DNA of 41,589 bases, taken from the NCBI GenBank assembly GCA_003139615.1, contig PLJH01000117.1, positions 2,225 to 43,813 of the forward strand. The letters run 5' to 3'. The notes under the pieces were generated by a model. The model was not told where the DNA came from and did not search any database. It saw only the letters and a list, made by a program, of their open reading frames with translations. Positions 15,999-32,642 of the stretch are shown in pieces. A program made the position numbers and the translations under genes. Source of the stretch: Alphaproteobacteria bacterium (GTDB lineage Bacteria; Pseudomonadota; Alphaproteobacteria; Micropepsales; Micropepsaceae). Position 1 is the first letter of the stretch, and each line of letters starts with the position of its first letter.

Positions 15999-17837
15999 TC
16001 AATTGCCCTTGAGATGCACCGCGGGGAAATAGAGTCCGAGCAAGCGTCGCTTCCACCAGATGCCTTTCGCCTTCTCTGCGCCGTCGGAAAAAATGTATTC
16101 GTAGAAAGCGGCGCGCACATAGGCAGGAGGCTTGTCGGGAAACGGGTTCTTTTCGAGCAGCGCGGTCACGGTGGGTTCGTTTTGCAGGAGCTTCGTCATG
16201 AAACTCCAGAACCACGGCAGGCGCTGTGGATCGTCGAGAGCAGCGAACCACATTTGCCAGTCGAGGCGCGGCTGGTGCGGGATGTTCCAGCCGGGCGCGC
16301 GTGCGACATCGCCGGGCTTGTCGCGGAATTCGTATTCCCGCCAGGTGACGCCGTCGTCCGAGCCTTCGATGACGATCTCGTTGCGATGTGTCGTCATCAC
16401 CGAGAAGAGACCATAGGCGCTGACGATGTGCAGCGGCTCGATGACGCCGGCAACGTTTTGCGCCAGCATGGGAGGATTGCCGCCGAAGCGCGCATCCATC
16501 TCAACCAGGCTGCAAAACACGATCAACCCGGCCAGCACTCCAACGCCGATCCTGACGGGCTTCGACGGGTTCTTCGCGCGCAGCGGAAGGAAGCGGAGCC
16601 AACGCTGCGGCAGGATTTTCCGCAGTGCCGCATCGTCGAACAGCACGAGGCACAACAGCATCGTCTGCAGATTGAACCAGTTGTAGTTGCCCGTGAGCAC
16701 GATGAGGGTTTCGAGCAGCAGGAAGCCGAACGCCGCGCAGAAGCGCAGCCGGCGCGGCGCGAAGATCAGGAACGGCAGCACAAGCTCGACGACGAATGTG
16801 GTGCCCGTGGCGAATCTGAGCACGCCCGCCGGCGCATGCGCGGCATACCACGCAAGCGGCGTCGGCAAAGGCTGGGTGAGAAAGTGGTAGTTGAGCGCGG
16901 AGAGATTCCACCAATTGGGATCGCCGCTCGCAAGCTTGACCACGCCCGACATGAACATGAAGCGGAACAGCAGCCATCGCAAAAGCCAGATGCCCGGCAT
17001 GGTGGCGAAGCTCAGCACCAGCGCGAGGAAGCCGGTTTCCAGCAGGAAGGTGTCCCACTGGAACGTCATGAAGGTTTGCCCGGCATAGAACAGCGAGAGA
17101 TAGAGAACGAACAGGAGAACGAGGCAGACGCGCGGCAAGACATTGAACACAAGCAGAAGCGAGATCGCGGCACCTCCCCAGCACACGGCATGAATCGCGA
17201 AGTCGCTTGCGCTCGCCCAGAACACCATCGGCATCAGGAAGAATCGCTGGATGCCCACATGGCTCGCGATGCGGCTCGTCAAATCGGCGAGCGGCAGAAT
17301 GCCGTGACTGCCGATCAATCCTTGCGCCTGCACGGCGAATGACACGAAAGCCGCGAAATAGATCAGCCCAAACAATCGCAGGAACAGGAACGAGGCGAGA
17401 TCGTAACGCGGCGGCGTGAAATCCTTGCCCCACAGAACGAGGCTGATGCGATAGCAGGCCGGGCGCGCCGCCGCGATCGAGGCGTAAGCGAGCTCCGTGA
17501 AGATCGCAAAGCCCGGCAGATAGCGATAAAGCCAGAGCCAGAATCCTTTGCCGGGCACCTGGCTCAGGGTGCGAAAGCTCGCCTCGGCGCCGCTCGCAAA
17601 CTGTCCGTCCGGCGTGATGTATTGCACCGCGCGCTGGAAATCGGTGAGCGGAATGCCGGGATATTGCGCGCCCACATCCTGGAAGGTCCGGAATTCGACC
17701 GCATCGCCCGTCAGCTTCTGCCAATACCGCGCCCAATACCCGCAGAATCCGCAATCGCCGTCATAGATGAGACGCGGACGCGAGATCGCGGACGCATCGG
17801 CGGTGTTGGGGGGTTGATGTCCGGGTATTGGTTGCAA
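15999..17837 (-). CDS. DCC1-like thiol-disulfide domain fused to a lipase maturation factor-like membrane domain
   Basis: A 612-residue protein. Residues about 20-135 form a DCC1/DUF393 domain with the YDGDCGFCGYW motif (DxxCxxC). The remainder is a polytopic membrane region (about ten helices, 150-470) followed by a soluble C-terminal domain. Segments such as FQWDTFLLETGFLA, NWWNLSALNYHFLTQPLP and LTGNYNWFNLQTMLL match the lipase maturation factor family, which assists folding of secreted lipases in animals. Bacterial roles are unknown. The fusion suggests that the membrane protein works on disulfides of exported proteins; this is inference. It is convergent with the SDR gene. Confidence 0.88.
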   Translation of the reverse strand: MQPIPGHQPPNTADASAISRPRLIYDGDCGFCGYWARYWQKLTGDAVEFRTFQDVGAQYPGIPLTDFQRAVQYITPDGQFASGAEASFRTLSQVPGKGFWLWLYRYLPGFAIFTELAYASIAAARPACYRISLVLWGKDFTPPRYDLASFLFLRLFGLIYFAAFVSFAVQAQGLIGSHGILPLADLTSRIASHVGIQRFFLMPMVFWASASDFAIHAVCWGGAAISLLLVFNVLPRVCLVLLFVLYLSLFYAGQTFMTFQWDTFLLETGFLALVLSFATMPGIWLLRWLLFRFMFMSGVVKLASGDPNWWNLSALNYHFLTQPLPTPLAWYAAHAPAGVLRFATGTTFVVELVLPFLIFAPRRLRFCAAFGFLLLETLIVLTGNYNWFNLQTMLLCLVLFDDAALRKILPQRWLRFLPLRAKNPSKPVRIGVGVLAGLIVFCSLVEMDARFGGNPPMLAQNVAGVIEPLHIVSAYGLFSVMTTHRNEIVIEGSDDGVTWREYEFRDKPGDVARAPGWNIPHQPRLDWQMWFAALDDPQRLPWFWSFMTKLLQNEPTVTALLEKNPFPDKPPAYVRAAFYEYIFSDGAEKAKGIWWKRRLLGLYFPAVHLKGN

Positions 17838-17918: not shown

Positions 17919-19223
17919 CTACTTCCCAAACACCCGCGCGAAAATCGTGTCGACATGTTTGAGGTGGTAGCCGAGGTCGAACAGGGTTTCGAGCTGTGAC
18001 ACAGGCAACGCCTTCGTCACATCTTTATCCGCCTTCAGCAGATCGAGCAGTGCGCCTTCGCCGTTCCAGGCGCGCATCGCGTTGCGCTGTACGAGGCGAT
18101 AGGACTCTTCGCGGCCGACTCCTGCTTGCGTGAGCGCAAGCAACACGCGCTGACTGTGCACGAGGCCGCGCGTGCGGTCGAGATTCTCCTGCATGCGCGC
18201 CGGATAGACGAGCAGCTTGTCGACGACGCCGGCCGCACGAACCAATGCGAAATCAAGCGTGATCGTCGCATCGGGGCCGATATAGCGCTCGACGGAAGAA
18301 TGGGAAATATCGCGCTCGTGCCACAGCGCAATGTCTTCGAGTGCGGGCGCGACATAGGCGCGGACCATGCGGGCAAGTCCCGTCAGATTCTCCGTCAGAA
18401 TCGGGTTGCGCTTGTGCGGCATGGCGGAAGAGCCCTTCTGGCCTTCCGAGAAATATTCCTCTGCCTCAAGCACTTCCGTGCGTTGCAGATGGCGGATTTC
18501 CGTGGCGAGTCTTTCGATCGATCCCGCCACCACACCAAGCGCGGCGAAATAGGCCGCATGCCGGTCGCGCGGAATCACTTGCGTGGACACCGGCTCGATC
18601 TTCAGTCCCATCGCTTTGGCGACATGGGCTTCCACATGCGGATCGATATTCGCGAAGGTGCCGATTGCGCCCGAGATCGCGCAGACGGCGATTTCCTCGC
18701 GCGCTGCCACGATCCGTGCCCGCGCGCGGACGAACTCCGCATAGAAGCCCGCCAGCTTGACGCCGAAAGTCGTGGGTTCGGCGTGGATGCCGTGGCTGCG
18801 GCCGATGGTGACGGCGTCCTTGAATTCGAAGGCGCGCTTCTTGAGCGCGGCCAAAAGCAGATCGACATCGGCGATCAGCAGATCCGCCGCGCGCGCGAGT
18901 TGAACCGACAGACAGGTGTCGAGCACGTCCGACGATGTCATGCCCTGATGCACGAAGCGCGCCTCGGGGCCCACGATCTCGGAGAGGTGGGTGAGAAACG
19001 CGATCACGTCGTGCTTCACTTCGCGTTCGATTTCATCGATGCGCTCGACGTCGAATTTCGCGTTGCGCCCTTTTTCCCAGACGGTTCGCGCTGCGTTCTT
19101 CGGAATAACGCCCAGCTCGGCCAACGCGTCGGCGGCATGCGCCTCGATTTCGAACCAGATGCGGAACTTCGTCTCCGGCGACCAGATCGCCGTCATGTCG
19201 GGTCTTGCGTAGCGGGGGATCAT
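17919..19223 (-). CDS. purB: Adenylosuccinate lyase
   Basis: A 434-residue enzyme, normal for the short bacterial PurB class. It cleaves SAICAR to AICAR and adenylosuccinate to AMP in purine synthesis. The N-terminus IPRYARPDMTAIWSPE is characteristic, and the flexible signature loop is SSAMPHKRNPI (about residues 264-274), which holds the catalytic Ser. The second active-site His region is GRSHGIHAEPTTFG. The start ending at 19223 lies 4 bases after the stop of the dehydrogenase gene and lacks its own strong ribosome binding site, so it is likely translated by coupling. A longer frame into the dehydrogenase gene is rejected. Confidence 0.96.
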   Translation of the reverse strand: MIPRYARPDMTAIWSPETKFRIWFEIEAHAADALAELGVIPKNAARTVWEKGRNAKFDVERIDEIEREVKHDVIAFLTHLSEIVGPEARFVHQGMTSSDVLDTCLSVQLARAADLLIADVDLLLAALKKRAFEFKDAVTIGRSHGIHAEPTTFGVKLAGFYAEFVRARARIVAAREEIAVCAISGAIGTFANIDPHVEAHVAKAMGLKIEPVSTQVIPRDRHAAYFAALGVVAGSIERLATEIRHLQRTEVLEAEEYFSEGQKGSSAMPHKRNPILTENLTGLARMVRAYVAPALEDIALWHERDISHSSVERYIGPDATITLDFALVRAAGVVDKLLVYPARMQENLDRTRGLVHSQRVLLALTQAGVGREESYRLVQRNAMRAWNGEGALLDLLKADKDVTKALPVSQLETLFDLGYHLKHVDTIFARVFGK

Positions 19224-19227
19224 CGGA

Positions 19228-20694
19228 TCAAGCCATCCCCAATCCGCCGAGAGCCAGATATTTGATTTCGAGATAATCCTCGATGCCGTATTTGGAGCCT
19301 TCGCGGCCAATTCCCGATTCCTTCATGCCGCCGAAGGGTGCCACTTCCGTCGAGATGATGCCCTCATTGATGCCGAGGATACCATATTCCAGCGCTTCGG
19401 CCACGCGCATGATGCGCCCCATATCCTTCGAATAGTAATAGGCGGCAAGGCCATATTCCGTGTCGTTCGCCATGCGAACCGCGTCTTCTTCCGTGTTGAA
19501 GCGGAACAGCGTCGCGACGGGTCCGAAGATCTCTTCGCGGGCGCAGGCCATTTTGGTCGTCACGTCGCGCAGAAGCGTGGGCTCGAAATAGGTGCCGCCC
19601 AGCGCATGGCGCTTGCCACCGGTCACGATCTTCGCGCCTTTGGCGGTCGCATCCTTGAGAAGCCGTTCAACTTTTTCGACGCCGTCCATATTGATCAGCG
19701 GGCCTTGCGTCACACCGTCTGCGGCGCCATCGCCCACTTTGAGCTTCGCCATGCGGCTCGCGAGTTTTTCCGCGAACGCATCATAGACGCCGTCCTGCAC
19801 CAGGAAGCGGTTGGCGCAGACGCAGGTTTGTCCCATGTTGCGGAACTTCGACAGCATCGCGCCGTCGGCTGCCGCATCGAGATCGGCGTCGTCGAACACG
19901 ATGAACGGTGCATTGCCGCCGAGCTCCAGCGATACCTTCTTCACGGTGGACGCGCATTGGCGCATCAGGAGCTTGCCGATCTCCGTCGAACCCGTGAACG
20001 AGAATTTGCGCACCAGCGGATTCTGCGTCAGCTCGCCGCCCACTTTCGCCGGCTGATTGCTGGTCACAACGTTGAACACGCCCGCGGGAATCCCCGCGCG
20101 CTCTGCGAGTTCGGCAAGCGCAAGCGCCGAGAGCGGCGTGTCCTCGGCCGGCTTGATGATGAAGGTGCAACCGGCGGCAAGCGCCGGCGCGCATTTGCGC
20201 GTGATCATCGCATTGGGGAAATTCCAAGGGGTCACCGCAGCGACGACACCGATCGGTTCCTTGAACACGAGGATGCGGCGGCCCGCCTGCGTGGTCGGAA
20301 TCACGTCGCCATAGATGCGCTTGCCCTCTTCCGCGAACCATTCGATGAACGACGCGCCATAGGCGACTTCGCCGCGGGTCTCGGCCAATGGCTTGCCCTG
20401 CTCGGCCGTCATCAGCTGGGCCAGATCTTCCTGGTTCGCCATGATGAGATCGAACCATTTGCGCAGGATGTTGGCGCGTTCCTTTGCCGTTTTCTTGCGC
20501 CAGGCCGGAAACACGCGTGCGGCGGCCTCGATGGCGCGGGCGGTTTCGCCTTCGGCCAGATCGGCGACTTCGGCGATGGTCTGGCCGGTCGCGGGATTCG
20601 TGACGGCAAAGCGCGTCCCCCTATCGGCGGAAAGCCACGCGCCGTCCACATAGGCGTCTGATTTGAGAAGCGATGGGTCTTTGAGCGTCAGCAT
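19228..20694 (-). CDS. gabD: NAD(P)-dependent succinate-semialdehyde dehydrogenase-type aldehyde dehydrogenase
   Basis: A 488-residue aldehyde dehydrogenase. It has the cofactor-binding stretch TPWNFPNAMITRKCAPALAA, the glutamate motif LELGGNAPFIVFDDAD (general base), and the nucleophile in MGQTCVCANRF, where the first Cys is catalytic and the second sits two residues on, as in GabD. The KFSFTGSTEIGK loop is also typical. The length matches GabD (about 480), and it would oxidise succinate semialdehyde to succinate in GABA breakdown. No GABA transaminase is in the window. GAGGA lies 6 bases before the ATG. It is cotranscribed with purB, an unusual partner. Confidence 0.9.
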   Translation of the reverse strand: MLTLKDPSLLKSDAYVDGAWLSADRGTRFAVTNPATGQTIAEVADLAEGETARAIEAAARVFPAWRKKTAKERANILRKWFDLIMANQEDLAQLMTAEQGKPLAETRGEVAYGASFIEWFAEEGKRIYGDVIPTTQAGRRILVFKEPIGVVAAVTPWNFPNAMITRKCAPALAAGCTFIIKPAEDTPLSALALAELAERAGIPAGVFNVVTSNQPAKVGGELTQNPLVRKFSFTGSTEIGKLLMRQCASTVKKVSLELGGNAPFIVFDDADLDAAADGAMLSKFRNMGQTCVCANRFLVQDGVYDAFAEKLASRMAKLKVGDGAADGVTQGPLINMDGVEKVERLLKDATAKGAKIVTGGKRHALGGTYFEPTLLRDVTTKMACAREEIFGPVATLFRFNTEEDAVRMANDTEYGLAAYYYSKDMGRIMRVAEALEYGILGINEGIISTEVAPFGGMKESGIGREGSKYGIEDYLEIKYLALGGLGMA

Positions 20695-20730: not shown

Positions 20731-22323
20731 CTAGCTCCCCGGCGCGGCGGGCGAAAGTGTGCTGTTTTTGACCGGGGCGGAGGCCTCGATCAGCGATGCG
20801 GTGTAGACGGTCTTGGGCGCGCGCAGGATATCGGCCAGTGGACCGCGCTCGATCACGCGGCTGTCCTTCATGATCATTGCGTCTTCGGCGAGCGCCAGCG
20901 CAACCGTTATGTCGGAGGTGATCACGAGAAACGCCGGGCCTTCCTGGGTACGGAAATTCTTCAGCAGATCGCGCATGACGGCTTGTGCGAATGCATCGAG
21001 ACCGCGCAAAGGCTCGTCGATCACCGCCAACACCGGCGCGCTGACGATCGCGCGCGCCACCTGCAGCCTGCGCTTGTCGAAGGCGGAGAGACTTGCAACC
21101 ACGCGATTGCCGGGCAATGAAGCCAGCCCCACGCGCTTGAGCGCCACGTCGCGATAACTGGCGACCACATGCCGTGGCAGATCGAGATGGGTGCGCAGGG
21201 GTTCGGCGACCGTGTCCCAGATGGTCATGCGCGGGTCGAGCATGTCGTCCGCCCCCGCCACGAATGCCACGCGACGCCGCAACCGCGCCATCATGTTGTT
21301 CGCAAGCACGCCGATATCGACGGCATCGAACACGACCCGTCCCGACGGTGCGCGATCGAGCCCGAGCAGGATGCGCGCCAGCGTGTGCCGCCCGGATCCT
21401 TCATCGCCGATCAGTGCCAGCGACGCGCCGCGACGCAGTTCGAACGTCAGATCGTCCCGCGCGCGCCTGGGCGACGGCTTCGCCATTTCGATGCGATAGG
21501 CCTGGATGACGGGCTGACCGCGCGTGCTTGCGCGCGGTTGCGGCTTGTCGCTCAACGGAGCGGGCTGTGCTTTGAACAGGGTTTGCGTGTAGCTGTGCGC
21601 CTGCGATGTCGCGAGCCGTTCGGCGGGACCTTCTTCCACGACTTTGCCGTGGCGCATCACGATCAAACGGCCTTTGAGCCACACCGGCGTTTCGGCATTC
21701 ATCGCTGCATAGAGAATCGCAAAACCGAGGCGCGCTTGTTCCGCCAGCAGCGCACGTGTCAGTGCGCGCGCATGTCCCGGCGCGAGACCTGCCAACGCGT
21801 GATCGGCGAGCAGCAATTCCGGGTTCTGCGCGTAAGCCGCCGCAAACAATCCCCAGGCCTGCATTTCGGGCGACAATTCCGCAGGTGGTTTGTCGAGATC
21901 GATGAGCTTCGGCGCGCCGGAAAGACGCCCAAGCGCAAGACCGAGTTCCTCCTGTGCGCTCGCCCGCGGCGCGTCGAGTTTGCGCGCAACAATCCGGGTC
22001 AATTGCGAAAGCGCCGAGACGTGCCGATTCAATGGCTGTTCGAACGGCCCCGGCAGATAGGACATCCGGATTGCAGGCTTCGGGAATTTCACGGCGCGCT
22101 CCGGCGACGCATCGCCGAATTGCAACGTGCCGTCCACGATTTCGTCGCGTTCCGCCGCGCCGGCCAGCACGCGCATCAGCGCTTCCTTGCCGCAACCCGC
22201 TTCGCCGAGAATGACCAGCGTCTCGCCCGCGTCGACAGCGAGTGAAAGGCGGTCGAGTTCAGGCCGTTTCGCGCCGGGACGCGTCACGGTCAGTTCGGTG
22301 ACGGTGAGAAGGTGGCCGCTCAT
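20731..22323 (-). CDS. Fused double ABC ATPase of a peptide-type importer, with degenerate nucleotide sites
   Basis: A 530-residue protein with two ATP-binding cassettes in tandem (about 7-235 and 270-520), the layout of fused DppDF-type subunits. The key motifs are altered. Walker A of the first half is GEAGCGKE (residues 40-47), with Glu in place of Ser/Thr. Walker A of the second is GDEGSGRH (306-313), with Arg-His in place of Lys-Ser/Thr. The first Walker B is LLLADH (D174-H175, no Glu); the second is intact (VIDEP, D436-E437). The signature loops read LSPEM and LSAFD rather than LSGGQ, and the switch His is replaced (ITSD). The ATG overlaps the stop of the upstream permease (ATGA). Transport activity is therefore doubtful or unusual. 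Confidence 0.88.
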   Translation of the reverse strand: MSGHLLTVTELTVTRPGAKRPELDRLSLAVDAGETLVILGEAGCGKEALMRVLAGAAERDEIVDGTLQFGDASPERAVKFPKPAIRMSYLPGPFEQPLNRHVSALSQLTRIVARKLDAPRASAQEELGLALGRLSGAPKLIDLDKPPAELSPEMQAWGLFAAAYAQNPELLLADHALAGLAPGHARALTRALLAEQARLGFAILYAAMNAETPVWLKGRLIVMRHGKVVEEGPAERLATSQAHSYTQTLFKAQPAPLSDKPQPRASTRGQPVIQAYRIEMAKPSPRRARDDLTFELRRGASLALIGDEGSGRHTLARILLGLDRAPSGRVVFDAVDIGVLANNMMARLRRRVAFVAGADDMLDPRMTIWDTVAEPLRTHLDLPRHVVASYRDVALKRVGLASLPGNRVVASLSAFDKRRLQVARAIVSAPVLAVIDEPLRGLDAFAQAVMRDLLKNFRTQEGPAFLVITSDITVALALAEDAMIMKDSRVIERGPLADILRAPKTVYTASLIEASAPVKNSTLSPAAPGS

Positions 22324-23150
22324 GCGCGCTCGCCTTCGTCGAGGCCGGCAGCGAGACGCGCGCACAAAATGAACAATGCCAGCGCTGCCGCAGGAACCGC
22401 AGCCGTCCACCACGCATCGAAATAGACATCGCGGGCCGCTGCAATCATCAAGCCCAGATCGCGATGGGGTGGTGTTGCGCCGTAACCGAGAAAGCTGACT
22501 GTCGACAAAACGATCGTCACGGCAGCGAGCGCGCGCGCCGCGATGGAGAGAAACGAGTCGCGGAATTCATAAGTCAGATCGCGGCGCAGCAGCGCGCCCG
22601 GCGAGATGCCCGTGGCGCGCGCGAATTCTGCGTGGCGTGACTGTCCCAATGCACGTGCGCGATCGAAGGCGCGCGTAAATCCGAGAGGCGCCACGGCAAG
22701 GCCTGCAGCGAGAGGCGCCAGTCCGCGACTGGCAAGTCCGATAAACAGAATGGCAAGCAGAAGTGCGGGGATCGCGCCCAGAATTCCCGCGATGCCGCGC
22801 AACACGAACCCGATGCGATAGGGCAGGCGCGCGGCGATGAAGCCGGCGAGTCCTCCCGCGACAACGACCACGATCGCGGCGAGTCCCGCATTGGTGACGG
22901 TCACGGCCAGCGCATGCAGCGTTTCACTGAGCATATCGCGGCCGAGAACGTCGGTGCCCAACGGAAAATGGATTGACGGTGCGATCAGCGGCGGACCGAA
23001 ATCGATGGTGTCGGCCGGCGCTCGCGCCAGCACTTCGCTCAAGCCGACCGTCACGCCAATGGCGCCCAATCCGATAAAACCTACGGCACGGATCACGCCC
23101 CCAAGCGTGATCGCGGGAGCGGGCGCCTCATGTGCCGAGACGACGCTCAT
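22320..23150 (-). CDS. ABC transporter permease, DppC/OppC-like
   Basis: A 276-residue inner-membrane protein with about five or six helices. The middle carries the cytoplasmic coupling loop region (FDRARALGQSRHAEFARATG) and the end has FLGYGATPPHRDLGLMIAAA, which matches the FLGLGxxPPxPxWG stretch of DppC/OppC. The ATG ending at 23150 overlaps the stop of the preceding permease by four bases (ATGA), and its own stop overlaps the ATPase start in the same way. The three genes are one tightly coupled unit. The substrate is probably a peptide or similar compound by family; it cannot be deduced here. Confidence 0.88.
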   Translation of the reverse strand: MSVVSAHEAPAPAITLGGVIRAVGFIGLGAIGVTVGLSEVLARAPADTIDFGPPLIAPSIHFPLGTDVLGRDMLSETLHALAVTVTNAGLAAIVVVVAGGLAGFIAARLPYRIGFVLRGIAGILGAIPALLLAILFIGLASRGLAPLAAGLAVAPLGFTRAFDRARALGQSRHAEFARATGISPGALLRRDLTYEFRDSFLSIAARALAAVTIVLSTVSFLGYGATPPHRDLGLMIAAARDVYFDAWWTAAVPAAALALFILCARLAAGLDEGERA

Positions 23151-24049
23151 GGGTTGGCCTCTATTCCGGCGAGCGCGCGCGCGCCCAACGAACCCACGAA
23201 TTCGGCAAACAGCGTGATCGCGGCGAATGCGAACAACACCAGCGCGACCACGCTCCAATCGTGCAACGCGACGGATTTGAGGAACAGCACGGCCGCGCCC
23301 GGCCAGCCGAACACCCATTCCGCAACAGCGGCGGCAGAGAACAGCGACAAGGCGATCTCGCCGAGATTGGCAAGCACGCCTGCCAGCACCTGCGGCACGA
23401 GATAGAGACGATCCACTTCGAACGGCGTGAGCCCCATCATTCTGAGCCCGCGCCGATAGGGTGCATCACGCGACTCGTTTGCGGCCCGCCGAAGAGCCAG
23501 TTGCACGCCGGCGGCGCCGGCCGCACCAACGGTGAGCGCCGGCAAGGCAAGCAGGCGAAACGCGTCGCGGATCGCCGCGCCGTGACCGCTCGCAAGCGCG
23601 CTCCACAGATCGGGCGCCCCCTGCAATTGCGCGTCCCAATGGAGCACCTGAACGGAGAGCCACAGCAACGCCAACGCGGCACAGAACACGGGCGCCGCGG
23701 CGACAATCTGGATCAGAGGGGCGGCGGCTCGCGATGCACGGCCAATGCTCAAAACGATTCCGAGCGGGATTCCGATCAGGGCGGCGACGAGGGCGCCGGC
23801 CGCCACGAGTTCCAGAGTTGCCGGCAATCTCTGGGCAACTTCCTGGGCGGCGGATGCGGCGGTGATCGCACTCGACCCGAAGTCAAAGCGGACGAATTCG
23901 CCGAGTCGCGACAGGACCGTGCCGATGAAATGCGACACGCCGCCTTTCCCGGGCGGCGCGGCCTGCGCCGCGACCACAGCCGCCATCAGAATCGCGCCAA
24001 GAAGGCCCAGCGCAAAACGCCCGGCCCGCCTGAGCCCAAAACGCCACAT
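23147..24049 (-). CDS. ABC transporter permease, DppB/OppB-like
   Basis: A 300-residue inner-membrane protein; the ATG ending at 24049 is preferred because GGGGA lies about 5 bases upstream, though a GTG ending at 24067 is possible. It has an N-terminal helix, a periplasmic segment, then five helices. The coupling loop is RRGLRMMGLTPFEVDRLYLV, and the C-terminal region AEWVFGWPGAAVLFL matches the VExVFxxPGLG segment of DppB. It is the first gene of the three-gene unit. No solute-binding protein gene lies upstream; the next gene in that direction is an HlyD-type efflux adaptor. Confidence 0.88.
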   Translation of the reverse strand: MWRFGLRRAGRFALGLLGAILMAAVVAAQAAPPGKGGVSHFIGTVLSRLGEFVRFDFGSSAITAASAAQEVAQRLPATLELVAAGALVAALIGIPLGIVLSIGRASRAAAPLIQIVAAAPVFCAALALLWLSVQVLHWDAQLQGAPDLWSALASGHGAAIRDAFRLLALPALTVGAAGAAGVQLALRRAANESRDAPYRRGLRMMGLTPFEVDRLYLVPQVLAGVLANLGEIALSLFSAAAVAEWVFGWPGAAVLFLKSVALHDWSVVALVLFAFAAITLFAEFVGSLGARALAGIEANP

Positions 24050-24152: not shown

Positions 24153-25229
24153 TTACTCAAAGGCGACCGTCACATCTGCAGACAGACCCGGCCGCAGGCG
24201 CTCAAGGCCGGGCTGGTTGCGGTCCAGGCGGATGCGCACGGGCAGGCGTTGCACGATACGCGTGAAATTTCCGGTGGCCGGCTCGAAGGGGAGAAGCGAG
24301 AACTCCGAGCCGGAACCGGGGGAAAAGCTTTCCACCTCTCCGGTGAAATCGCGGCCAGGAAGGGCATCGAATCGCACGCGGGCCTTCTGGCCTACGAGCA
24401 TGCGCGCGGTTTGCGTTTCCTTGAAATTGGCCGCCACATAGACCGTGTCCATCGGCACCACAGTCATCAATTGTGTGCCGGGCTGCACATATTCGCCGAT
24501 CTGTGCCTGGCGATCTCCGACCACGCCTGCGACGGGTGAACGAATGATCGTGTGTGAAAGATTAAGTTGCGCAAGCATCAGCGCCGCCTTGGCCTTCGAG
24601 ACGGCGGCCTGCAATTGCGCCCGGGTCCGCGCGACGACGGTCTCCTGCTGCCGGCTCGCCGCAAGAGACGCGCGGGATTTCTCCGAATTTGCGCTGTCCT
24701 CGACGGACGTCGCATGAATCTGCTCCGCTTGACTGTGCGAGACATAACCGTCTGCGACCAGCTGGGCGTAGCGGCGATTGTCGGCCTCGGCGCGTGCGCT
24801 TTCCGCATCGGACGAACGGATTGTCGCCTCCGCCGCGCGGGTATTGGCAGCGGCAAGAGCCTGTTGCGCATCCTGCTGCGAGAGCGTGGCTTGGGCGGAC
24901 TCCAGGTCCGCCTGCGCGGCCATGACGGCTTGCTGGTAGTCTTCCGGGTCGATGCGGATCAGCGGCTGGCCCGCGACCACATGCTGATTGTCACGCACCA
25001 ATATCCGGGAGACGAGGCCCTGAATTTTCGGTGCGACGATCGTGGAATCGGCTTTCACATAGGCGTCATCCGTGGACACGGACGAGGCCGGCAATGCGAT
25101 CCACCAGGCGCCCAGTGCGATCAGCGCAATTGCTGCAGCGGCGACGACAAACGCACGCCGCGGGATGGCGGCGAGCCGGGACTTCGGACGCGCCACGGTT
25201 TCGAGGCCGATGTCGAATGTCGTGCTCAT
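24153..25229 (-). CDS. emrA: HlyD/EmrA-family membrane fusion protein of a drug-efflux pump
   Basis: A 358-residue protein with one membrane helix (about 26-46), a biotinyl-lipoyl-like half (STDDAYVKADSTIVAPKIQG), a long alpha-helical hairpin (about 100-210), the returning lipoyl half (SPVAGVVGDRQAQIGEYVQPG) and a beta-barrel domain. It bridges an MFS pump to an outer-membrane channel. The pump is the divergent MFS gene 1.1 kb away; no TolC-type gene is visible. The start overlaps the stop of the thioesterase gene (ATGA), so it is the last gene of the TetR-thioesterase-HlyD operon. The symbol is by family only. Confidence 0.92.
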   Translation of the reverse strand: MSTTFDIGLETVARPKSRLAAIPRRAFVVAAAAIALIALGAWWIALPASSVSTDDAYVKADSTIVAPKIQGLVSRILVRDNQHVVAGQPLIRIDPEDYQQAVMAAQADLESAQATLSQQDAQQALAAANTRAAEATIRSSDAESARAEADNRRYAQLVADGYVSHSQAEQIHATSVEDSANSEKSRASLAASRQQETVVARTRAQLQAAVSKAKAALMLAQLNLSHTIIRSPVAGVVGDRQAQIGEYVQPGTQLMTVVPMDTVYVAANFKETQTARMLVGQKARVRFDALPGRDFTGEVESFSPGSGSEFSLLPFEPATGNFTRIVQRLPVRIRLDRNQPGLERLRPGLSADVTVAFE

Positions 25230-25669
25230 GGTGTGACCACCAGACAGGTTGTTGTGCCGCTGGCGCAGAGCCGGCCCTGCGCATCCAGCAATCGGCCTTC
25301 CGCAAACGCGGCGCGCCGGCCGACGGAGATGATTTTGCCTTCCGCGCGCACGGGAGCCGAATCCTCGGTCATTGCGCGGTGGTAGGCGACCTTGAGTTCG
25401 AGCGTGGTGTAGGACTGGCCCGGCTTCAGCGTGGAATGGACAGCACAAGCCATCGCGCTATCGAGCAAGGTGGCAGCGTAACCGCCATGCACGGTACCGA
25501 TGGGATTGTAGACGGATTGATCCGGGCGACCCTCGAAGACGACGCGGCCTTCTTCCAGCGTCGCAAGGCGGAAGTTGAGCGTTTTGCCGATACCTTTGAA
25601 TGTGCCGTCGAAAGCCGCACGCAATTGCTCAAGGCCGGAGAGATTCGCGAATTCAACGCTGGCGTTCAT
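25226..25669 (-). CDS. PaaI-type hotdog-fold acyl-CoA thioesterase
   Basis: A 147-residue hotdog protein. The segment VHGGYAATLLDSAMACAV is the PaaI/YbdB-type active-site region: HGG plus an acidic residue (Asp) on the central helix, about residues 60-77. The strands LELKVAYHRAM and AEGKIISVGRRAAFAEGRL follow. It would hydrolyse an aryl- or acyl-CoA thioester in the cytosol. It starts one base after the TetR stop and its own stop overlaps the HlyD start, so it is cotranscribed with the efflux adaptor. A thioesterase is not a normal efflux component and may free an acyl or aryl acid that the pump then exports; this is inference. Confidence 0.9.
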   Translation of the reverse strand: MNASVEFANLSGLEQLRAAFDGTFKGIGKTLNFRLATLEEGRVVFEGRPDQSVYNPIGTVHGGYAATLLDSAMACAVHSTLKPGQSYTTLELKVAYHRAMTEDSAPVRAEGKIISVGRRAAFAEGRLLDAQGRLCASGTTTCLVVTP

Positions 25670-25670
25670 C

Positions 25671-26282
25671 TCAGTTTACAGCTTTCGAGAGTTCGGCATC
25701 GGACACACCCAACCGTGCTCGGATACCGGCGCGCGCGGAGGCGAGAAGTTCATCAGACAAAGCTTTGTCGGCCACCGCGCGGGACAGAGCGACCGCGCCT
25801 GCCATGGCAGAGAATGCGGCGCGCGCGAGTGTTTGTGCATCTTCGCGGCCGGTTTCAGCGATCCATCCCGCCAACGCATCGACAATGTGGTCGATACCCG
25901 CCTGGAACGCCGTCTGAAATTTCTTCGATTGCCGCGGCGCATCGGAATTGAGCGCCACGATCGGGCAGCCGCCCGACACATTGTCCCGATGGACGGGCGA
26001 CACATACATGTCGATATAGGTCGCAAGCGCGTGCCTCGCGGGCATGCCGTCGACGACTTTGCGGAATTTTGCGCCTGCATGTGCGAAGGCGGAATTCAAC
26101 GCTTCGACCAGGAGCGCATCCTTCGATTTGAAATGCGCATAGAACCCGCCATGGGTGAGGCCGGCTGCCTCCATCACCTCGGCGACCGAGAGCCGATCGG
26201 GCCCCTTTTCCCGCAAGACCGTGCAGGCGGCCCGAACAAGCTTCTTGTGGGTCTCTTCCTTGTGATTTTCGCCGTACCGCAT
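25671..26282 (-). CDS. TetR-family transcriptional regulator of the efflux locus
   Basis: A 203-residue regulator. The N-terminal TetR DNA-binding domain (about 10-58) has LSVAEVMEAAGLTHGGFYAHFKSKDA with the recognition helix THGGFYAHF. The C-terminal ligand-binding domain contains GGCPIVALNSDAPRQ, typical of NemR/AcrR-like members that have a Cys near a ligand pocket. The ATG ending at 26282 has GGAG at good spacing. It heads the operon with thioesterase and HlyD, and diverges from the MFS pump. The palindrome 24 bases away (26306-26327) is its likely operator, so it would control both directions. Confidence 0.93.
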   Translation of the reverse strand: MRYGENHKEETHKKLVRAACTVLREKGPDRLSVAEVMEAAGLTHGGFYAHFKSKDALLVEALNSAFAHAGAKFRKVVDGMPARHALATYIDMYVSPVHRDNVSGGCPIVALNSDAPRQSKKFQTAFQAGIDHIVDALAGWIAETGREDAQTLARAAFSAMAGAVALSRAVADKALSDELLASARAGIRARLGVSDAELSKAVN

Positions 26283-26305
26283 CCTTGTTCTCCGCTCCCG
26301 AGGAG

Positions 26306-26328
26306 TTATATGATATGCATCATATAAT
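26306..26328 (+). promoter_or_regulatory. Palindromic operator overlapping the MFS pump -10 box
   Basis: The perfect 9-base arms TTATATGAT (26306-26314) and ATCATATAA (26319-26327) are separated by ATGC. The AT-rich site stands out in GC-rich DNA. On the plus strand the right arm contains TATAAT (26323-26328), an ideal -10 box 20 bases before the pump ATG. The -35 region is poor, as expected of a regulated promoter. It lies between the divergent TetR and MFS genes, so a TetR dimer bound here would block both promoters. Confidence 0.85.
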
Positions 26329-26347
26329 CCGGCAGGGGACGATTGCA

Positions 26348-27937
26348 ATGGCTGAGGCGAGCGCGGGAACCGCAGAATTGCATGTCGCAGCGCAGGGGCT
26401 TTCGCACGGCCGCAAGCTCCTGATTTTCGGGATCATGGCGTTCGGTCAGTTCATGGCCCTTCTGGATGTGCAGATCGTCGCGGCGTCCCTGAACTCGATC
26501 CAGGCGGGACTTTCAGCGGGGCCGGACGAGATCGCCTGGGTGCAGACGGCCTATCTGATGGCGGAGATCGTGATGATCCCGCTCGCGGCCTATCTCAGCC
26601 AGGCGCTGTCCACGCGTTGGCTGTTCGTGGGTTCAGCGGTGCTGTTCACCCTGTCGAGCCTGATGTGCGGCATGGCGTGGAGCATCCAATCGATGATCGT
26701 CTTTCGTGCCATCCAGGGCTTTGTCGGCGGCGCGATGGTGCCGACGGTGTTCGCAACCGGCTTTGCGATGTTCTCCGGCAAGAGCCGCGCGATGATCCCG
26801 GCCATCCTCGGCATGGTTTCGACCCTGGCGCCCACGCTCGGCCCCACGGTGGGCGGGTGGATTACGGATGTTTCGAGCTGGCACTGGCTGTTTTTCGTCA
26901 ATGTCATTCCCGGCGCGGCCATTGCGGTTTTCCTGTCGATGCTCGGCAAGGTCGATGAACCGAATCTCAGGATGCTGAAGCGCATCGACTGGCTGCACGT
27001 CGCATCGCTCGCACTCTTCCTCGGCGCGCTCCAATATGTGCTGGAGGAAGGCCCGCGCAATCAGTGGTTCGAGGATCCGACCATCCAGCTTGCGGCGTGG
27101 ATGTCTTTTGTCGGCGCGCTCGTATTCTTCGAGCGCTCATTCTTCTCCCTGATGCCGGTGCTGAAATTAAGCCCCTTTCGCCATAGAACGTTTACGCTCG
27201 CCTGCATCCTCAATCTCGTCATCGGCTTCGGTCTCTATGCGGCGACCTATCTGACGCCGATCTTTCTCGGGCGCGTGCGCGGCTATTCGAGTTTCGACAT
27301 CGGAACGACTGTGTTTGTCGCGGGCTTCTTCATGGTTTTCGGCGCGCCGCTGGCCGCCCGGCTCACGACCCTTGTCGACCAGCGGATCGTGATTACGGTC
27401 GGGTTCTCGCTCTTCGCCTTTTCGTGCTGGCTCTTTTCGGGCATCACGTCGGACTGGGGATTCTGGGAATTGTTTCCGGCACAGGCGATCCGCGGCTTCG
27501 CAATCCTGCTCTGCATCGTGCCGTCCGTCGGCATGGCGTTGAATGGGCGAGCGCCGGACGAACTGCGCTATGCGTCGGGCCTGTTCAATCTGATGCGCAA
27601 TCTGGGCGGAGCAATCGGCATCGCGACCGTGACGACCTGGTTGCAGGATTACGGCCGCATCCACGGCGAGTTGCTGGGGGAAGCCATTCCGCATACCGGC
27701 ACGGCCGCGCTGGCGCAGGCGACGGCGCGGGTTGCGGCGTTCACTTCCGACGCCGCGCACGCCCAACAGGTGATCGCGGGCGAACTGACGCAATTGGTGA
27801 CGCAACAGGCGCTCACGCTTGCCTTCAGCGATGTGTTCCTGCTGATGGCGGGGATGTTCGTGATCGCGCTGGCAATCGTGCCCTTCTGCAAGGTGCCGCC
27901 GCTGACCGACACAGCGCCGGTCGTCGAAGCGCATTGA
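26348..27937 (+). CDS. emrB: EmrB/QacA-type (DHA2) MFS multidrug efflux pump
   Basis: A 529-residue inner-membrane protein with about fourteen hydrophobic helices, the length and layout of DHA2 pumps. It begins with FGQFMALLDVQIVAASLNSIQ (helix 1, with the conserved D in LDVQIV) and has the loop AAYLSQALSTRWLF. It exports drugs by proton antiport and couples to HlyD/EmrA and an outer-membrane channel. The ATG at 26348 is chosen because AGGGGA lies 8 bases upstream and the operator palindrome covers earlier in-frame start candidates (26315). The TetR-thioesterase-HlyD operon diverges from it. Confidence 0.95.
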   Translation: MAEASAGTAELHVAAQGLSHGRKLLIFGIMAFGQFMALLDVQIVAASLNSIQAGLSAGPDEIAWVQTAYLMAEIVMIPLAAYLSQALSTRWLFVGSAVLFTLSSLMCGMAWSIQSMIVFRAIQGFVGGAMVPTVFATGFAMFSGKSRAMIPAILGMVSTLAPTLGPTVGGWITDVSSWHWLFFVNVIPGAAIAVFLSMLGKVDEPNLRMLKRIDWLHVASLALFLGALQYVLEEGPRNQWFEDPTIQLAAWMSFVGALVFFERSFFSLMPVLKLSPFRHRTFTLACILNLVIGFGLYAATYLTPIFLGRVRGYSSFDIGTTVFVAGFFMVFGAPLAARLTTLVDQRIVITVGFSLFAFSCWLFSGITSDWGFWELFPAQAIRGFAILLCIVPSVGMALNGRAPDELRYASGLFNLMRNLGGAIGIATVTTWLQDYGRIHGELLGEAIPHTGTAALAQATARVAAFTSDAAHAQQVIAGELTQLVTQQALTLAFSDVFLLMAGMFVIALAIVPFCKVPPLTDTAPVVEAH

Positions 27938-27976
27938 GCCGCGAGACAAACGTCGAACACCGCGCCTGCGCTTATG

Positions 27977-28288
27977 TCAGCGAAACCGCGGCCCGCAATG
28001 CTCGTTGCCGTTGCAACGGCATTCGTCGGAGATCAGGTGATCGGGATTGCCGACGACTTCGCGCAACCTGTTGTGCGCGATATCGAGCAGCGAAACCGCG
28101 GTTTGGAACTTTGCGCGATCAGCCGGAGCCTCAGGGAGCACCGAGAGCAATTCGCCCTGATCGATGGCGGCGAAGATTGCGAGGACATCGTTGATGGAGC
28201 GCAACGTCGCGCAGCCTTCGTCGGTGTGTTCGGATTCGTCACCATCGGCATATGACGGCGTGAGCAGGTGAATTTTCGACGTTTCCAT
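27977..28288 (-). CDS. Small acidic protein of unknown function
   Basis: A 103-residue frame whose composition looks protein-like: acidic N-terminal half, amphipathic helices in the middle (RSINDVLAIFAAIDQGELL and AVSLLDIAHNRLREVV) and a short Cys-containing tail (CRCNGNEHC), which might bind a metal. No signal peptide and no known family are recognised. AAGGG lies about 12 bases before the ATG, a weak site. A plus-strand frame across the same DNA is judged a shadow. The gene is transcribed alone or follows the GNAT-like gene 76 bases upstream on the same strand. Moderate doubt remains whether it is a gene. Confidence 0.5.
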   Translation of the reverse strand: METSKIHLLTPSYADGDESEHTDEGCATLRSINDVLAIFAAIDQGELLSVLPEAPADRAKFQTAVSLLDIAHNRLREVVGNPDHLISDECRCNGNEHCGPRFR

Positions 28289-28364
28289 GGTCGTTTTAGC
28301 CCTTTCAAAAAAACTCTTTAGACGGGTCAGTTAGTTCTGGAGACTCGAATTTGAGCGAAACTCC

Positions 28365-29546
28365 TCAATGCGGGTTGGTGGCCGGCCGCATGGACGACTT
28401 GTCGAGGACGCCGGGTTCGTCCCAGCGACCTTCCGGCCTTACCAAGAGATAAGGGTCGCTGTGCATGGTGAGTGGATTGGGATGCGGCTCCAGCTCGCCG
28501 TACATCTCGACGAATTCGTGATCCGAAAAGACAAGGTCGTAATTTTTCATCAGAGGTTGAAAGCCGAAACGTGACCAGAATTTGACGAGATGCTTTTCCG
28601 CTTGACCATAAACCTTGCGATATCCCTTGCGCCGACAGAAATTGAAGGCTGTGTCGACAAGTTCTTTCGCGATCAGCGTCCGACGGAATCGCGGTAGCAC
28701 AGCCAGTCGTTCGATCTTGGCAAAGTCAGCGAAATATCTCACGCGCATCGTCGCTGCCGGCTCGTCGTCCACGTAGCCCACAAAATGTGTCGCACTACGA
28801 TCGTTGCCGTCAAATTCTTCTGCATACGGACAATTCTGTTCTACCAGAAACACCGCCGCCCGGATGGCCAATGCCTTTTCGACATCGTCACTCGTGGCCG
28901 CAACGACCGTTTTGAATCTCGAACTCCAGGGATTCTTGCGTCTGGGTTGTTGTTCACCGCTCTTGCCGGCAGAGCGTTCGAGCACAAAGAGGTCACTGAT
29001 ACCGGCTCTTCCTTCCTCGACGGGTCTAAAGCCAAACCCAAAAATCGTTCGCAGTCCCGCTAAAGAGGCCGCGCCCGCATACAAAGGCAGCCCAGCGTAA
29101 GAAGGCCCCATCGCTTTTGCGACCATCCCGATGGCGATCTTGCCCAACTTGGGTGCCACGATGCTCCAGAGATAGATCGCCTCCAATTCGGCATCGGAGC
29201 TGACAAGATGCAGCGGATTAGGGTTTTTCGCGTCAAAGTTGTACGACTTCAGCGCTGCAACGCCTTGGCCGTTAAGAAAAAGCATTCCAACGTAGCCAAC
29301 CAGACGGTCCGGATCGGCGGCCTCTCGAGGAAATACTCCCCAAAATGACTCGGGATGGTTGCGGAGAATTGGGCTTACCACCTCGTATGGGGCGACTGAT
29401 GCTGATAGATTGTCGCGGGTTAATTGAAACATGTCTTGGAGTTCGAAGTCTTGCAGCGGTCTAACCCTGAACTGCTCTTCGACAGGAGGCGTTGCTCCTC
29501 TTAAACTATATGATACATCAATGTTTTGAGAATCAGCCGCCAACAT
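28365..29546 (-). CDS. GNAT-superfamily acetyltransferase-like protein with a long N-terminal domain
   Basis: A 393-residue protein from the ATG ending at 29546 (GGGAG 10 bases upstream); a GTG ending at 29594 would add 16 residues. The C-terminal half (about 200-345) is a GNAT domain: AIRAAVFLVEQNCPYAEEFDG is the ElaA-like N-terminal strand and helix, KIERLAVLPRFRR the acetyl-CoA-binding beta4 (motif A about residue 277), and VKFWSRFGFQPL the C-terminal strand. The pyrophosphate loop (RRTLIAKE) departs from Q/RxxGxG. The N-terminal half also reads like a GNAT fold but has no clear motif. It diverges from a LysR gene. GC content is lower than the surroundings. Confidence 0.75.
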   Translation of the reverse strand: MLAADSQNIDVSYSLRGATPPVEEQFRVRPLQDFELQDMFQLTRDNLSASVAPYEVVSPILRNHPESFWGVFPREAADPDRLVGYVGMLFLNGQGVAALKSYNFDAKNPNPLHLVSSDAELEAIYLWSIVAPKLGKIAIGMVAKAMGPSYAGLPLYAGAASLAGLRTIFGFGFRPVEEGRAGISDLFVLERSAGKSGEQQPRRKNPWSSRFKTVVAATSDDVEKALAIRAAVFLVEQNCPYAEEFDGNDRSATHFVGYVDDEPAATMRVRYFADFAKIERLAVLPRFRRTLIAKELVDTAFNFCRRKGYRKVYGQAEKHLVKFWSRFGFQPLMKNYDLVFSDHEFVEMYGELEPHPNPLTMHSDPYLLVRPEGRWDEPGVLDKSSMRPATNPH

Positions 29547-29630
29547 GTCTATTGCGCTCCCTACGCGAATGCCAAACAACGATTTCGCGAACACCTAACG
29601 TCCGTGCTCCGACAGTGAGAGCTTCGCGTA

Positions 29631-30692
29631 ATGCCCTCGAACAAAAAAGTAGTTAATCGTCTATCGGGGTATAAGGCGGACGAAGCGCCCGGTGCCGCCA
29701 TTCCGAATTGGGACGACATTCGTGTGTTCGTGACCGTTGCACGGAGCGGGAGTTATCGTCGTGCCGCGCGAGAGCTGTCGATGACTCAACCCTCCGTCAG
29801 CCATCGAATAGCGCGGTTTGAGGCAGCCGTGGGAGCCAAACTCTTTGACCGTTCTTCGCGCGGCACTGAGCTGACAGCCGACGGACATCGAGTTCTCAAT
29901 CATGCAAGTGCCGCCGAGCTGTCGTTGACGAAGGCAGTCCTTGCCGTGCGGGACGCAACCGAAAATGCCGAAGGCGAATGCAAGCTCGGCGTCGGAGACG
30001 GATTGGGTGGTGCCTGGGTGCCGCGCTTTATGCCGGCATTTTTGACTCAAAATCCCAATGTCAAACTTAGTCTGTTCACAACCAACGACCGGGGCGTCAG
30101 CAAGAAGCCGCTCTTCGATCTTCAAATCCAGTATCAGGAGCCGTTGGAACCGCATTTGGTCGTTTTGCGGCTCGCCGAATTGCACTTTACGCTGTTTGCC
30201 TCGCGTGCCTATGTCGAAAAATATGGCTGTCCCGCGTCACAGGAAGATTTGGCGCATCATCGTGTGCTCGATCTTTCGCTAGCCCTCACCGACAAAGGCA
30301 CGCTGTCATTCTGGGCAGGCGTTTCCAACAAAACCGTGTTGTTCACGAATTCAAGCCTTACGCTGGCCGAAGCCGTCTGGGCCGGTGCAGGCATTGGCCT
30401 CCTCCCGACTTATGCTGCAGCGATTGGGCCCGAACTGATTGCCGTCCTGCCGCAATTGCATTTTCAAGCACCTGTGTATGTGTGCTTTGAGCGCGAGATG
30501 GGAGCAAGGCCGGCCGTTCGTGCAACGTTGAATTTTCTGCGCGATTGTATTTTCAATTGGCAGGCCATGCCTTGGTTCGCACAGAATTTTTGCCTTCCAG
30601 AGCCGGGATGGCACAATCAGCTTTTGCTTCATCTCGCAAATTTGGGGGATTCTCATTTTCCGGAAACGCGTCGCCGACCCAAGAAACCATAA
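29631..30692 (+). CDS. LysR-family transcriptional regulator with extended C-terminus
   Basis: A 353-residue regulator, longer than the usual 300. After a 26-residue leader comes the winged helix-turn-helix (about 28-87: WDDIRVFVTVARSGSYRRAARELSMTQPSVSHRI). The substrate-binding domain covers about 115-305. The C-terminal 40 residues start with PWFAQNFCLP, a motif shared in pattern with the second LysR protein 1.8 kb downstream. The GNAT-like gene diverges from it, the usual geometry for a LysR regulator and its target, so the GNAT gene is the likely target. The ligand is unknown. Confidence 0.88.
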   Translation: MPSNKKVVNRLSGYKADEAPGAAIPNWDDIRVFVTVARSGSYRRAARELSMTQPSVSHRIARFEAAVGAKLFDRSSRGTELTADGHRVLNHASAAELSLTKAVLAVRDATENAEGECKLGVGDGLGGAWVPRFMPAFLTQNPNVKLSLFTTNDRGVSKKPLFDLQIQYQEPLEPHLVVLRLAELHFTLFASRAYVEKYGCPASQEDLAHHRVLDLSLALTDKGTLSFWAGVSNKTVLFTNSSLTLAEAVWAGAGIGLLPTYAAAIGPELIAVLPQLHFQAPVYVCFEREMGARPAVRATLNFLRDCIFNWQAMPWFAQNFCLPEPGWHNQLLLHLANLGDSHFPETRRRPKKP

Positions 30693-30729
30693 GCCAAATG
30701 GAAACAGGCTTAAATGTTAGCGTGGCTAA

Positions 30730-31161
30730 TTATTGCCATGCCGGCCGCCTTTCGATCTCGTAGCTCCCCAGCAATATCATCGTAACATCCGTAGCGTCGT
30801 CCGATAGCGGAAGAATGAGCTCCTGAAATTTCAGCTGCATGCCGTCAACTGTACAATCGTATATGCTGATGCTCGATGATTGCGTCTTTCGCGCGCAGTG
30901 GATGTATGAAACGATGGACCCAGCAACGAGTTCGTCCAAGTCGGCGATATCGCGCCCTGTGGCGTCGCATCCAAACCGCGAAATCAGATTGGTGCCGCAC
31001 AGGCGAACCGTGCGGGATGGGATATCGATCAGAGCGAGGTTTCCATACCAGGCGCGGAAGTCCCGGGTGCTGAATTGTGCCCTCTGGGGCATCATCCGTT
31101 CGCCGCGCTTCTTGTCCCAAAGAGATTTTAATTCCAGCAGTTTTTGCTCCGGCATATCCAT
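30730..31161 (-). CDS. PAS_5-type PAS domain protein
   Basis: A 143-residue protein from the ATG ending at 31161, with AAGGA 4 bases upstream. The sequence follows the alphaproteobacterial PAS_5 pattern: ELKSLWDKKRGERMMPQRAQF at the start, then LALIDIPSRTVRLCGTNL, FGCDATGRDIADLD, and the closing strand ELILPLSDDATDVTMILLGSYE. Such single-domain PAS proteins are thought to sense small ligands or redox state, but no output domain is present here. It lies between two LysR genes, convergent with the first and divergent from the second, so it may be a target or partner of the second. Confidence 0.82.
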   Translation of the reverse strand: MDMPEQKLLELKSLWDKKRGERMMPQRAQFSTRDFRAWYGNLALIDIPSRTVRLCGTNLISRFGCDATGRDIADLDELVAGSIVSYIHCARKTQSSSISIYDCTVDGMQLKFQELILPLSDDATDVTMILLGSYEIERRPAWQ

Positions 31162-31402
31162 TTGTTCCTTACCCGAAACAGGCGGCATTCGGGCACTGGT
31201 CGCCGCGCTTCGAGGTTTCCGGCAAGGCATAAAATCGACTTGAGGGGTGTAGACAGGAAACCGTGCCGGATTCGCGCCATAAGTCTCGGCACGCCGCCCA
31301 GGATGGCCGCCCAACGCTCATTCGGTTGCCATCGGCATAATCCCTGACTCGATTGCACAATTGGTGGATACTGCCCTCTATAGCGCGCCATCAGGCAGAG
31401 AC

Positions 31403-32470: not shown

Positions 32471-32479
32471 TTTCGGGAT

Positions 32480-32524
32480 CAGAAAACGAAAACCCCGCGC
32501 AGCTTGTGACGGCCAGCGGGGTTT
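32480..32524 (-). terminator. Rho-independent terminator
   Basis: The arms AAACCCCGC (32490-32498) and GCGGGGTTT (32516-32524) are perfect, 9 bp, with a 17-base loop. On the minus strand the stem is followed by TTTTCGTTTT, a good U-tract; on the plus strand only TTT follows. It lies between convergent genes and may serve both directions, but it is oriented best for a minus-strand transcript. Confidence 0.7.
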
Positions 32525-32594
32525 GCCGCATAGAGCGGTCTTGAGGCGTAACCTACCGCAATGATGACAAAAGTTGCCCTCCTGGTAGGCACGC
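32480..32594 (-). ncRNA. Candidate small RNA
   Basis: Read on the minus strand, a TATACT box (32606-32601) would start a transcript near 32594. It could fold into three stem-loops: CCTACC (32589-32584) with GGTAGG (32557-32552), CCGC/GCGG (32538-32526), and a terminator (32524-32490). It ends in a U-rich tract. A TTGACA (32633-32628) lies upstream, but its 21-base spacing to TATACT is too long for a normal sigma-70 promoter. No known RNA family is recognised. The RNA is a hypothesis from structure only. Confidence 0.4.
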
Positions 32595-32642
32595 AGACCA
32601 AGTATAGATGGATATTTATGAATGCTGTGTCAACGCCTCAAG
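32540..32642. repeat. Perfect 10-bp inverted repeat around the candidate small-RNA promoter
   Basis: CTTGAGGCGT (32540-32549) and ACGCCTCAAG (32633-32642) are perfect inverted repeats 83 bases apart. They bracket the promoter-like region and first stem-loop of the candidate RNA. They could be paired binding sites for a regulator or the outer stem of a longer RNA. Confidence 0.55.

Follow-up and report, generated by a model that had tools for sequence, protein, structure and literature searches.

ATP hydrolysis is the defining feature of ABC transporters, and the locus described here raises the question of what a fused ABC ATPase does beneath two permeases when neither of its nucleotide-binding domains (NBDs) carries a normal ATP site. 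The gene lies in a window, i.e. the whole stretch of DNA that was analysed, of 41,589 nucleotides from a contig (PLJH01000117.1) of an alphaproteobacterium of the family Micropepsaceae. The original prediction, made on this window alone, had pointed to the loss of key residues in both halves of the ATPase, and had offered three explanations: a transporter driven in a different way, a regulatory ATPase, or a gene early in decay. The genes concerned are the following, in window numbering:

23147-24049, minus strand: PermB, OppB/DppB-type permease of 300 residues, without the scoop segment between TM1 and alpha3
22320-23150, minus strand: PermC, OppC/DppC-type permease of 276 residues, with a 4-base overlap with each neighbour
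20731-22323, minus strand: fused two-domain ABC pseudo-ATPase of the Opp/Dpp type, 530 residues plus stop by translation
19228-20694, minus strand: aldehyde dehydrogenase (called GabD; Pfam Aldedh), 36 bases downstream of the ATPase
17919-19310, minus strand: PurB, adenylosuccinate lyase (Pfam Lyase_1 and ADSL_C), the conserved downstream neighbour

The order of the cassette is PermB, PermC and then the ATPase, and both the PermB/PermC and the PermC/ATPase junctions are 4-base ATGA overlaps; the intact frame of the ATPase, with its coordinates and strand, and its coupling to two permeases are as the original prediction had them. The protein has two ABC_tran stretches that score above the Pfam gathering score, and its motifs are found at these positions:

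22180-22206, minus strand: NBD1 Walker A GEAGCGKEA (residues 40-48), with the Lys kept and Glu in place of Ser/Thr
21862-21876, minus strand: NBD1 signature position, LSPEM (residues 150-154)
21799-21813, minus strand: end of the NBD1 Walker B, LLADH (residues 171-175), with His175 in place of the catalytic Glu
21385-21408, minus strand: NBD2 Walker A GDEGSGRH (residues 306-313), with Arg in place of Lys, as in 31/31 orthologues
21076-21090, minus strand: NBD2 signature position, LSAFD (residues 412-416; family consensus LSxFDKRR)
21013-21030, minus strand: NBD2 Walker B LAVIDE (residues 432-437), with Asp-Glu retained
20914-20916, minus strand: NBD2 switch position, Ser470 in place of His

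All the altered residues reported before in the Walker A motifs, the first Walker B, the signatures and the second switch are present in the protein, and the first switch His (M208) and the Q-loop Gln of NBD2 (G357) are gone as well. The sequence LSGGQ appears in neither signature, both switch His are absent, and Arg-His stands in the second Walker A where Lys-Ser/Thr is expected; in NBD2 the Walker B Asp-Glu and the D-loop are intact.

Relatives of the cassette were searched for in 96 genomes of the order, the ATPase query being run in 37 of them (the own genome included) and in 59 more, and the PermC query in all 96. The ATPase and PermC occur in the same 31 genomes and neither was found in the other 65. 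Thirty of the 69 genomes of the genus are carriers, the cassette being absent from the other 39, and the remaining carrier is one of the 27 genomes of sister genera (G065). The carriers include Rhizomicrobium electricum DSM 21034, placed by NCBI in the order Micropepsales, whose protein (L062) is the same as that of carrier G076. The orthologues are 43-58% identical to the window protein. A pattern scan of the genome contigs, with patterns derived from this ATPase family that could miss distant degenerate relatives, returned 24 loci at 51-59% identity, each matching one of the 31 members, and 34 further loci, all of which have one or more canonical Walker A motifs by regular expression. A tblastn search of plasmids gave 151 records, all of them below 60% identity; in the plasmid record that was inspected, from Sinorhizobium meliloti (CP050561.1), both ATPase halves are canonical and a binding protein is annotated.

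At the positions counted, a canonical composite ATP site is present in none of the 31 orthologues, in contrast to 10/10 fused controls, which comprise the canonical paralogue of the own genome (L002), seven lower-scoring fused hits (L149-L155) and two full-length hits from outside (L072 and L073). In NBD2 the Walker A Lys (Arg in 31/31), the adjoining Ser/Thr and the Q-loop Gln are missing from all 31 proteins, and the same is true, in both domains, of the switch His and of the Gly at the third signature position; each of these residues is found in 10/10 controls. The Walker A Ser/Thr and the catalytic Glu of NBD1 are kept in 1/31 each, whereas the controls have both in 10/10. The Walker A Lys of NBD1 is conserved in 24 of the 31, replaced by Arg in four and by Ala, Thr or Asn in three, and its Walker B Asp is retained in 28; the NBD1 Q-loop aligns poorly, and Gln occupies the control position in 4/31. 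The Walker B of NBD2 retains its Glu in every member and its Asp in 29. The claim that neither composite site looks normal is true of the whole family; the earlier observation was right, and understated. Chance or sequencing error was considered and is ruled out by the 31 open orthologues, the shared residues and the comparison with the controls. The copy from the sister genus (L148, G065:C207) is the only one that keeps ADEP (ADEPTDGLD) in NBD1, with most other motifs lost, and may be an evolutionary intermediate; a second, more distant fused ATPase match is found in the same genome (C214).

In TAP, CFTR and SUR the two NBD halves differ and catalytic residues are altered, and in this they resemble the window ATPase; one of their composite sites stays canonical. 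In contrast to ABC proteins with one degenerate site, both sites are noncanonical in 31/31 members of the family described here. Within the open-access literature, in those parts of it that were accessible, we found no counterpart among published ABC systems with both ATP sites dead, a result that does not amount to absence from print. The loss of both ATP sites is well supported by these alignments.

Such a loss could denote a gene in decay or a recent pseudogene, as the original prediction had considered. The absence of the cassette from more than half of the genus genomes (39/69), in some of which it was apparently cleanly removed, would be in line with decay; against it, the ATPase frame is open in 31/31 carriers, the odd residues are common to the family, and the window preserves both 4-base overlaps. 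In G091 the frame is of 516 residues and open, and the TAG in its match falls beyond the frame's own stop. Nei-Gojobori dN/dS was calculated for all 465 pairs, of which the 12 of lowest dS were considered, and for a selection of nine. Among these nine, the four closest pairs (86-92% identical) gave ATPase values of 0.186, 0.190, 0.084 and 0.135; in the same pairs the values were 0.075-0.180 for PermB and 0.071-0.186 for PermC, and in three of them 0.042-0.069 for PurB. For the ATPase, the other five chosen pairs gave 0.22-0.40 and values up to 0.67 appeared among the 12 pairs of lowest dS; we judge the higher ratios of the less close pairs to be inflated by third-position base bias, which was not modelled. 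The ratios of the closest pairs (0.08-0.19 for the ATPase) indicate purifying selection on the cassette genes. The alignment of orthologues that had been proposed as a check therefore speaks for functional changes, with odd residues shared, frames open and low dN/dS in these four pairs, and relatives with canonical motifs and frameshifts, which would have pointed to decay, did not turn up (0/31 canonical, 31/31 open). Decay is already refuted at the level of the family and retains hardly any plausibility.

Constraint is not evenly distributed between the two halves. By domain, dN/dS in the closest pair was 0.27 for NBD1 and 0.08 for NBD2, and a relaxed constraint on NBD1 is possible. The motif positions of NBD2 are conserved above the rest of the domain (0.84 vs 0.74, a value reached by 1 of 246 circular shifts), with 0.85 and 0.84 for the altered Walker A and signature, and part of this excess comes from the retained canonical residues of the Walker B and D-loop. 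The motif positions of NBD1 show no excess (0.67 vs 0.65; 88 of 247 circular shifts). Since the motif positions are over-conserved in NBD2 and not in NBD1, the pocket of NBD2 looks rebuilt and held, and that of NBD1 less so.

These data bear on two explanations in which nucleotide would still have a role. In one, the P-loop of NBD1 would bind nucleotide without hydrolysis and so determine the state of the permeases or of a partner protein, the complex being a nucleotide-gated regulator or channel. The frequent retention of the Walker A Lys (24/31) and Walker B Asp (28/31) of NBD1 is in its favour, and there is a precedent in SapD/TrkE, an Opp-family ATPase subunit that serves also a membrane system other than an ABC transporter, the Trk potassium system, which needs it (PMC9629497); the likeness is limited in that SapD is described there as an ATP-binding protein. 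In contrast, the NBD1 Lys is changed in seven proteins (Ala/Thr/Asn in three, Arg in four), the adjoining Ser/Thr is absent in 30/31, and conservation at the NBD1 motif positions does not exceed that of the remaining domain; we regard this explanation as unlikely. In the other, the complex would be a working pump with an unusual chemistry, in which the Arg and the Walker B Glu of NBD2 hydrolyse ATP slowly. The Walker B Asp-Glu and D-loop kept in NBD2, in a conserved pocket, could be read in this way; however, hydrolysis would have to proceed without the Walker A Lys, the Ser/Thr, the Q-loop Gln, the switch His and a facing LSGGQ, and we regard such a pump as improbable, all the more given the missing binding protein and docking segment described below. 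Nucleotide binding, or a residual unusual hydrolysis, is possible in view of the NBD1 Lys (24/31) and the NBD2 Walker B Asp (29/31) and Glu (31/31).

The origin of the cassette is indicated by its permeases and by the predicted structures. Two OppB/OppC-type permeases adjoin the ATPase; PF00005 was found in 18/18 of the members scanned (of 31) and PF08352 (oligo_HPY) in 16 of these 18. The NCBIfam matches listed place the ATPase, PermB and PermC near the peptide-type systems Opp/Dpp/Nik/Sap, each below the curated cut-off. PermB gives matches under cut-off to Opp2B, Opp4B and SapB, and its Pfam BPD_transp_1 match is above the gathering score. PermC has no Pfam match at 1e-3; it matches the NCBIfam model Opp2C (E 1.3e-28, under that model's cut-off) and, by sequence, DppC of E. 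coli (8z1v_B; E 3.4e-12). The AlphaFold2 model of the ATPase, built from 25 rows (pLDDT 88.6, pTM 0.86), has as its best PDB matches the fused ATPase DppD of the M. tuberculosis DppABCD complex (8wd9_D; Z 32.6, rmsd 4.0, 498 residues aligned), which it follows along its length, and the fused ATPase of OppABCD from the same bacterium (8j5s_D; Z 31.2, rmsd 3.1, 510 aligned). The model of PermB (pLDDT 89.1) has as its best PDB matches M. tuberculosis OppB (8j5q_B; Z 23.2, rmsd 3.8, 291 aligned) and E. coli DppB (8z1v_A; Z 23.0, rmsd 3.5, 289 aligned). M. tuberculosis DppABCD and OppABCD and E. coli DppABCDF and OppABCDF share with the window system fused or paired Opp-type NBDs, two permeases and the folds; in contrast to them, the window system is without a canonical ATP site, an SBP_bac_5 at the locus and the scoop segment of PermB. 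The window system is thus homologous to the Opp/Dpp importers but lacks these three features, each of which is among those that define a functional importer.

In E. coli DppB a periplasmic scoop between TM1 and alpha3 fills the cleft of DppA, the binding protein; deletion of the scoop impairs growth on dipeptide and lowers the ATPase activity to about a quarter (PMC12136057). At this position about 20 residues are missing from 19 of the 21 PermB proteins examined (of 31 carriers): the distance from the start to the DxGxS motif is 51-57 residues in these 19, vs 74-88 in 14 of 15 canonical permeases, several of which are close relatives of one another. The motif was not found in two of the 21 PermB, one of the 15 canonical permeases or the S. 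meliloti permease, and all of these stand outside the ranges given. The same gap is seen in an alignment. Two cut-off rows (L061 and L063) of 24 PermB rows were left out of the PermB set. In the PermB model TM1 is predicted to end at residue 30 and the next helix to begin at 37, joined by a linker of residues 31-36.

The binding protein was searched for as family SBP_bac_5 (PF00496) only. In all 31 carriers, the own genome among them, no PF00496 match lies close to the locus, and a search of whole genomes gave none in seven of the 30 others (G006, G010, G025, G032, G077, G079 and G080). Five of the seven genomes are at least 92% complete, and G077 is a single contig of 4.26 Mb, 99% complete. 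The other 23 carriers have SBP_bac_5 matches that lie either on a different contig or 0.89 Mb or more away from the locus; together with the own genome, 24/31 carriers have a match elsewhere, and for these a shared SBP_bac_5 is possible. The loss thus extends beyond what the original prediction could see in its single window, to the family-5 binding protein and to its docking element in PermB.

The permeases might instead be energised by a canonical NBD encoded elsewhere in the genome, with the fused protein as an accessory. The own genome does have a canonical fused paralogue (G000:C98:48068-49882), which belongs to a canonical Opp cassette of two permeases, a fused ATPase and a binding protein (L186, 4084-10296). 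This cassette has the same order, permease-permease-fused ATPase, and the two ATPases are 27-29% identical; it differs in that both ATPase halves are canonical at the motifs and in that the single SBP_bac_5 match of the genome lies about 1 kb downstream of its ATPase, on contig 98. Against a borrowed NBD, this canonical set has permeases and a binding protein of its own, and in five of the seven carriers without SBP_bac_5 (G077, G006, G032, G079 and G080) neither a second full-length fused ATPase (canonical fused query, E 1e-30) nor a second OppC-type permease (canonical OppC query, E 0.001) was found, PermC being the only match of the latter query. At E 1e-30, G006 and G077 have besides two single-domain ATPase matches each, one of which, by reading the ORFs, we take in each genome to be PhnK, beside PhnJ and PhnL; the oligo_HPY matches over the cut-off in both genomes are likewise presumably PhnK of a C-P lyase cluster. 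With these results, a canonical NBD supplied from elsewhere is very improbable. Canonical fused ATPases occur also in the non-carriers G096, G100 and G103, and are seemingly missing from five carriers.

On balance, we favour as the probable reading that PermB, PermC and the ATPase derive from a peptide importer and form a conserved membrane complex, gated or structural, that neither hydrolyses ATP nor depends on a binding protein. At the level of sequence, the cassette has kept its predicted fold, gene order and reading frame but has neither the catalytic set nor the docking segment, and some of the carriers are without any family-5 binding protein. The role of the complex is probably something other than ATP-driven import. 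We infer a descendant of the Opp/Dpp peptide importers that would have given up ATP hydrolysis and the family-5 substrate-binding protein, and whose fused NBDs would stay in place under the permeases, on the cytoplasmic side, permanently serving as a scaffold or gate. The remodelled pocket of NBD2 (GSGRR, LSxFDKRR, DEPLRGLDAFAQ) may bind a ligand or a partner, or lock the NBD pair shut, and the complex would act as an energy-independent gated pore or sensor, and not as a pump; it may be either of the two. A more specific version, which we put forward tentatively, is a passive gated pore or sensor in which the dead NBD dimer, through the rebuilt NBD2 pocket, would read an intracellular ligand, perhaps a purine metabolite; this ligand comes to mind because the purB neighbour is conserved, which is a lead and not a proof. 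Of the other two explanations in the original prediction, that the system is driven differently or has a regulatory role stays possible, but the lack of the catalytic set makes a regulatory ATPase as such doubtful. A membrane complex kept under purifying selection, and with confidently predicted folds, without ATP sites, the usual binding protein and the dock would be a natural test of the engineless ABC scaffold, and the plain label 'ABC transporter ATP-binding protein' can hide pseudo-ATPases.

The surroundings of the cassette give some indication of its history. PermB, PermC and the ATPase are contiguous in 18/18 neighbourhoods compared, and PurB lies within about 1.6 kb downstream of the cassette in 17 of them. 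In G077, R. electricum and the sister-genus genome G065, Map and RadC are found together upstream of PermB (map-radC-PermB). The surroundings of PurB were compared also in 17 non-carriers, 11 of them in the genus: in L161, L163 and L165 RadC is about 70 bases from PurB, as if the cassette had been cleanly excised; L164 is similar by its ORFs, L158 and L166 have one ORF between RadC and PurB, and the others differ or are cut off. A PurB tree with a midpoint root was built from 35 rows, without two carriers in which PurB is a fragment or missing and without G019, where it is split over contigs. On this tree the distribution of carriers needs four changes; of the ten non-carriers of the genus that it includes, nine group together with support (99/98), and only G089 is placed elsewhere. 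One ancestral cassette followed by a few losses would fit this tree, the root of which is only a midpoint.

GabD adjoins the cassette only in the own genome and in two of the relatives compared (L034 and L037). A GabD match upstream of purB is found also in two non-carriers of sister genera (L169 and L171), and gaps of 1.3-1.5 kb in L039 and L040 contain no match. The TTG start listed for PurB overlaps GabD by 83 bases; in the relatives the start is later, at MIPRYAR. A promoter and terminator scan was uninformative, with 0 promoters against 0.6 in the shuffles, and 7 terminator-like sites against 5.1. RadC has no match in the window at E 1e-5, and Map (34114-34941) is about 10 kb from PermB; the region between them (24153-34111), of about 10 kb, includes an HlyD/EmrA-like gene by Pfam, and other genes in it we take to be a thioesterase, a TetR and an MFS protein. 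On the other side of purB, a frame of 612 residues (15999-17837) carries the sequence DGDCGFC close to its N-terminus and many hydrophobic stretches after it, and presumably joins a DCC1-type thiol domain to a membrane domain.
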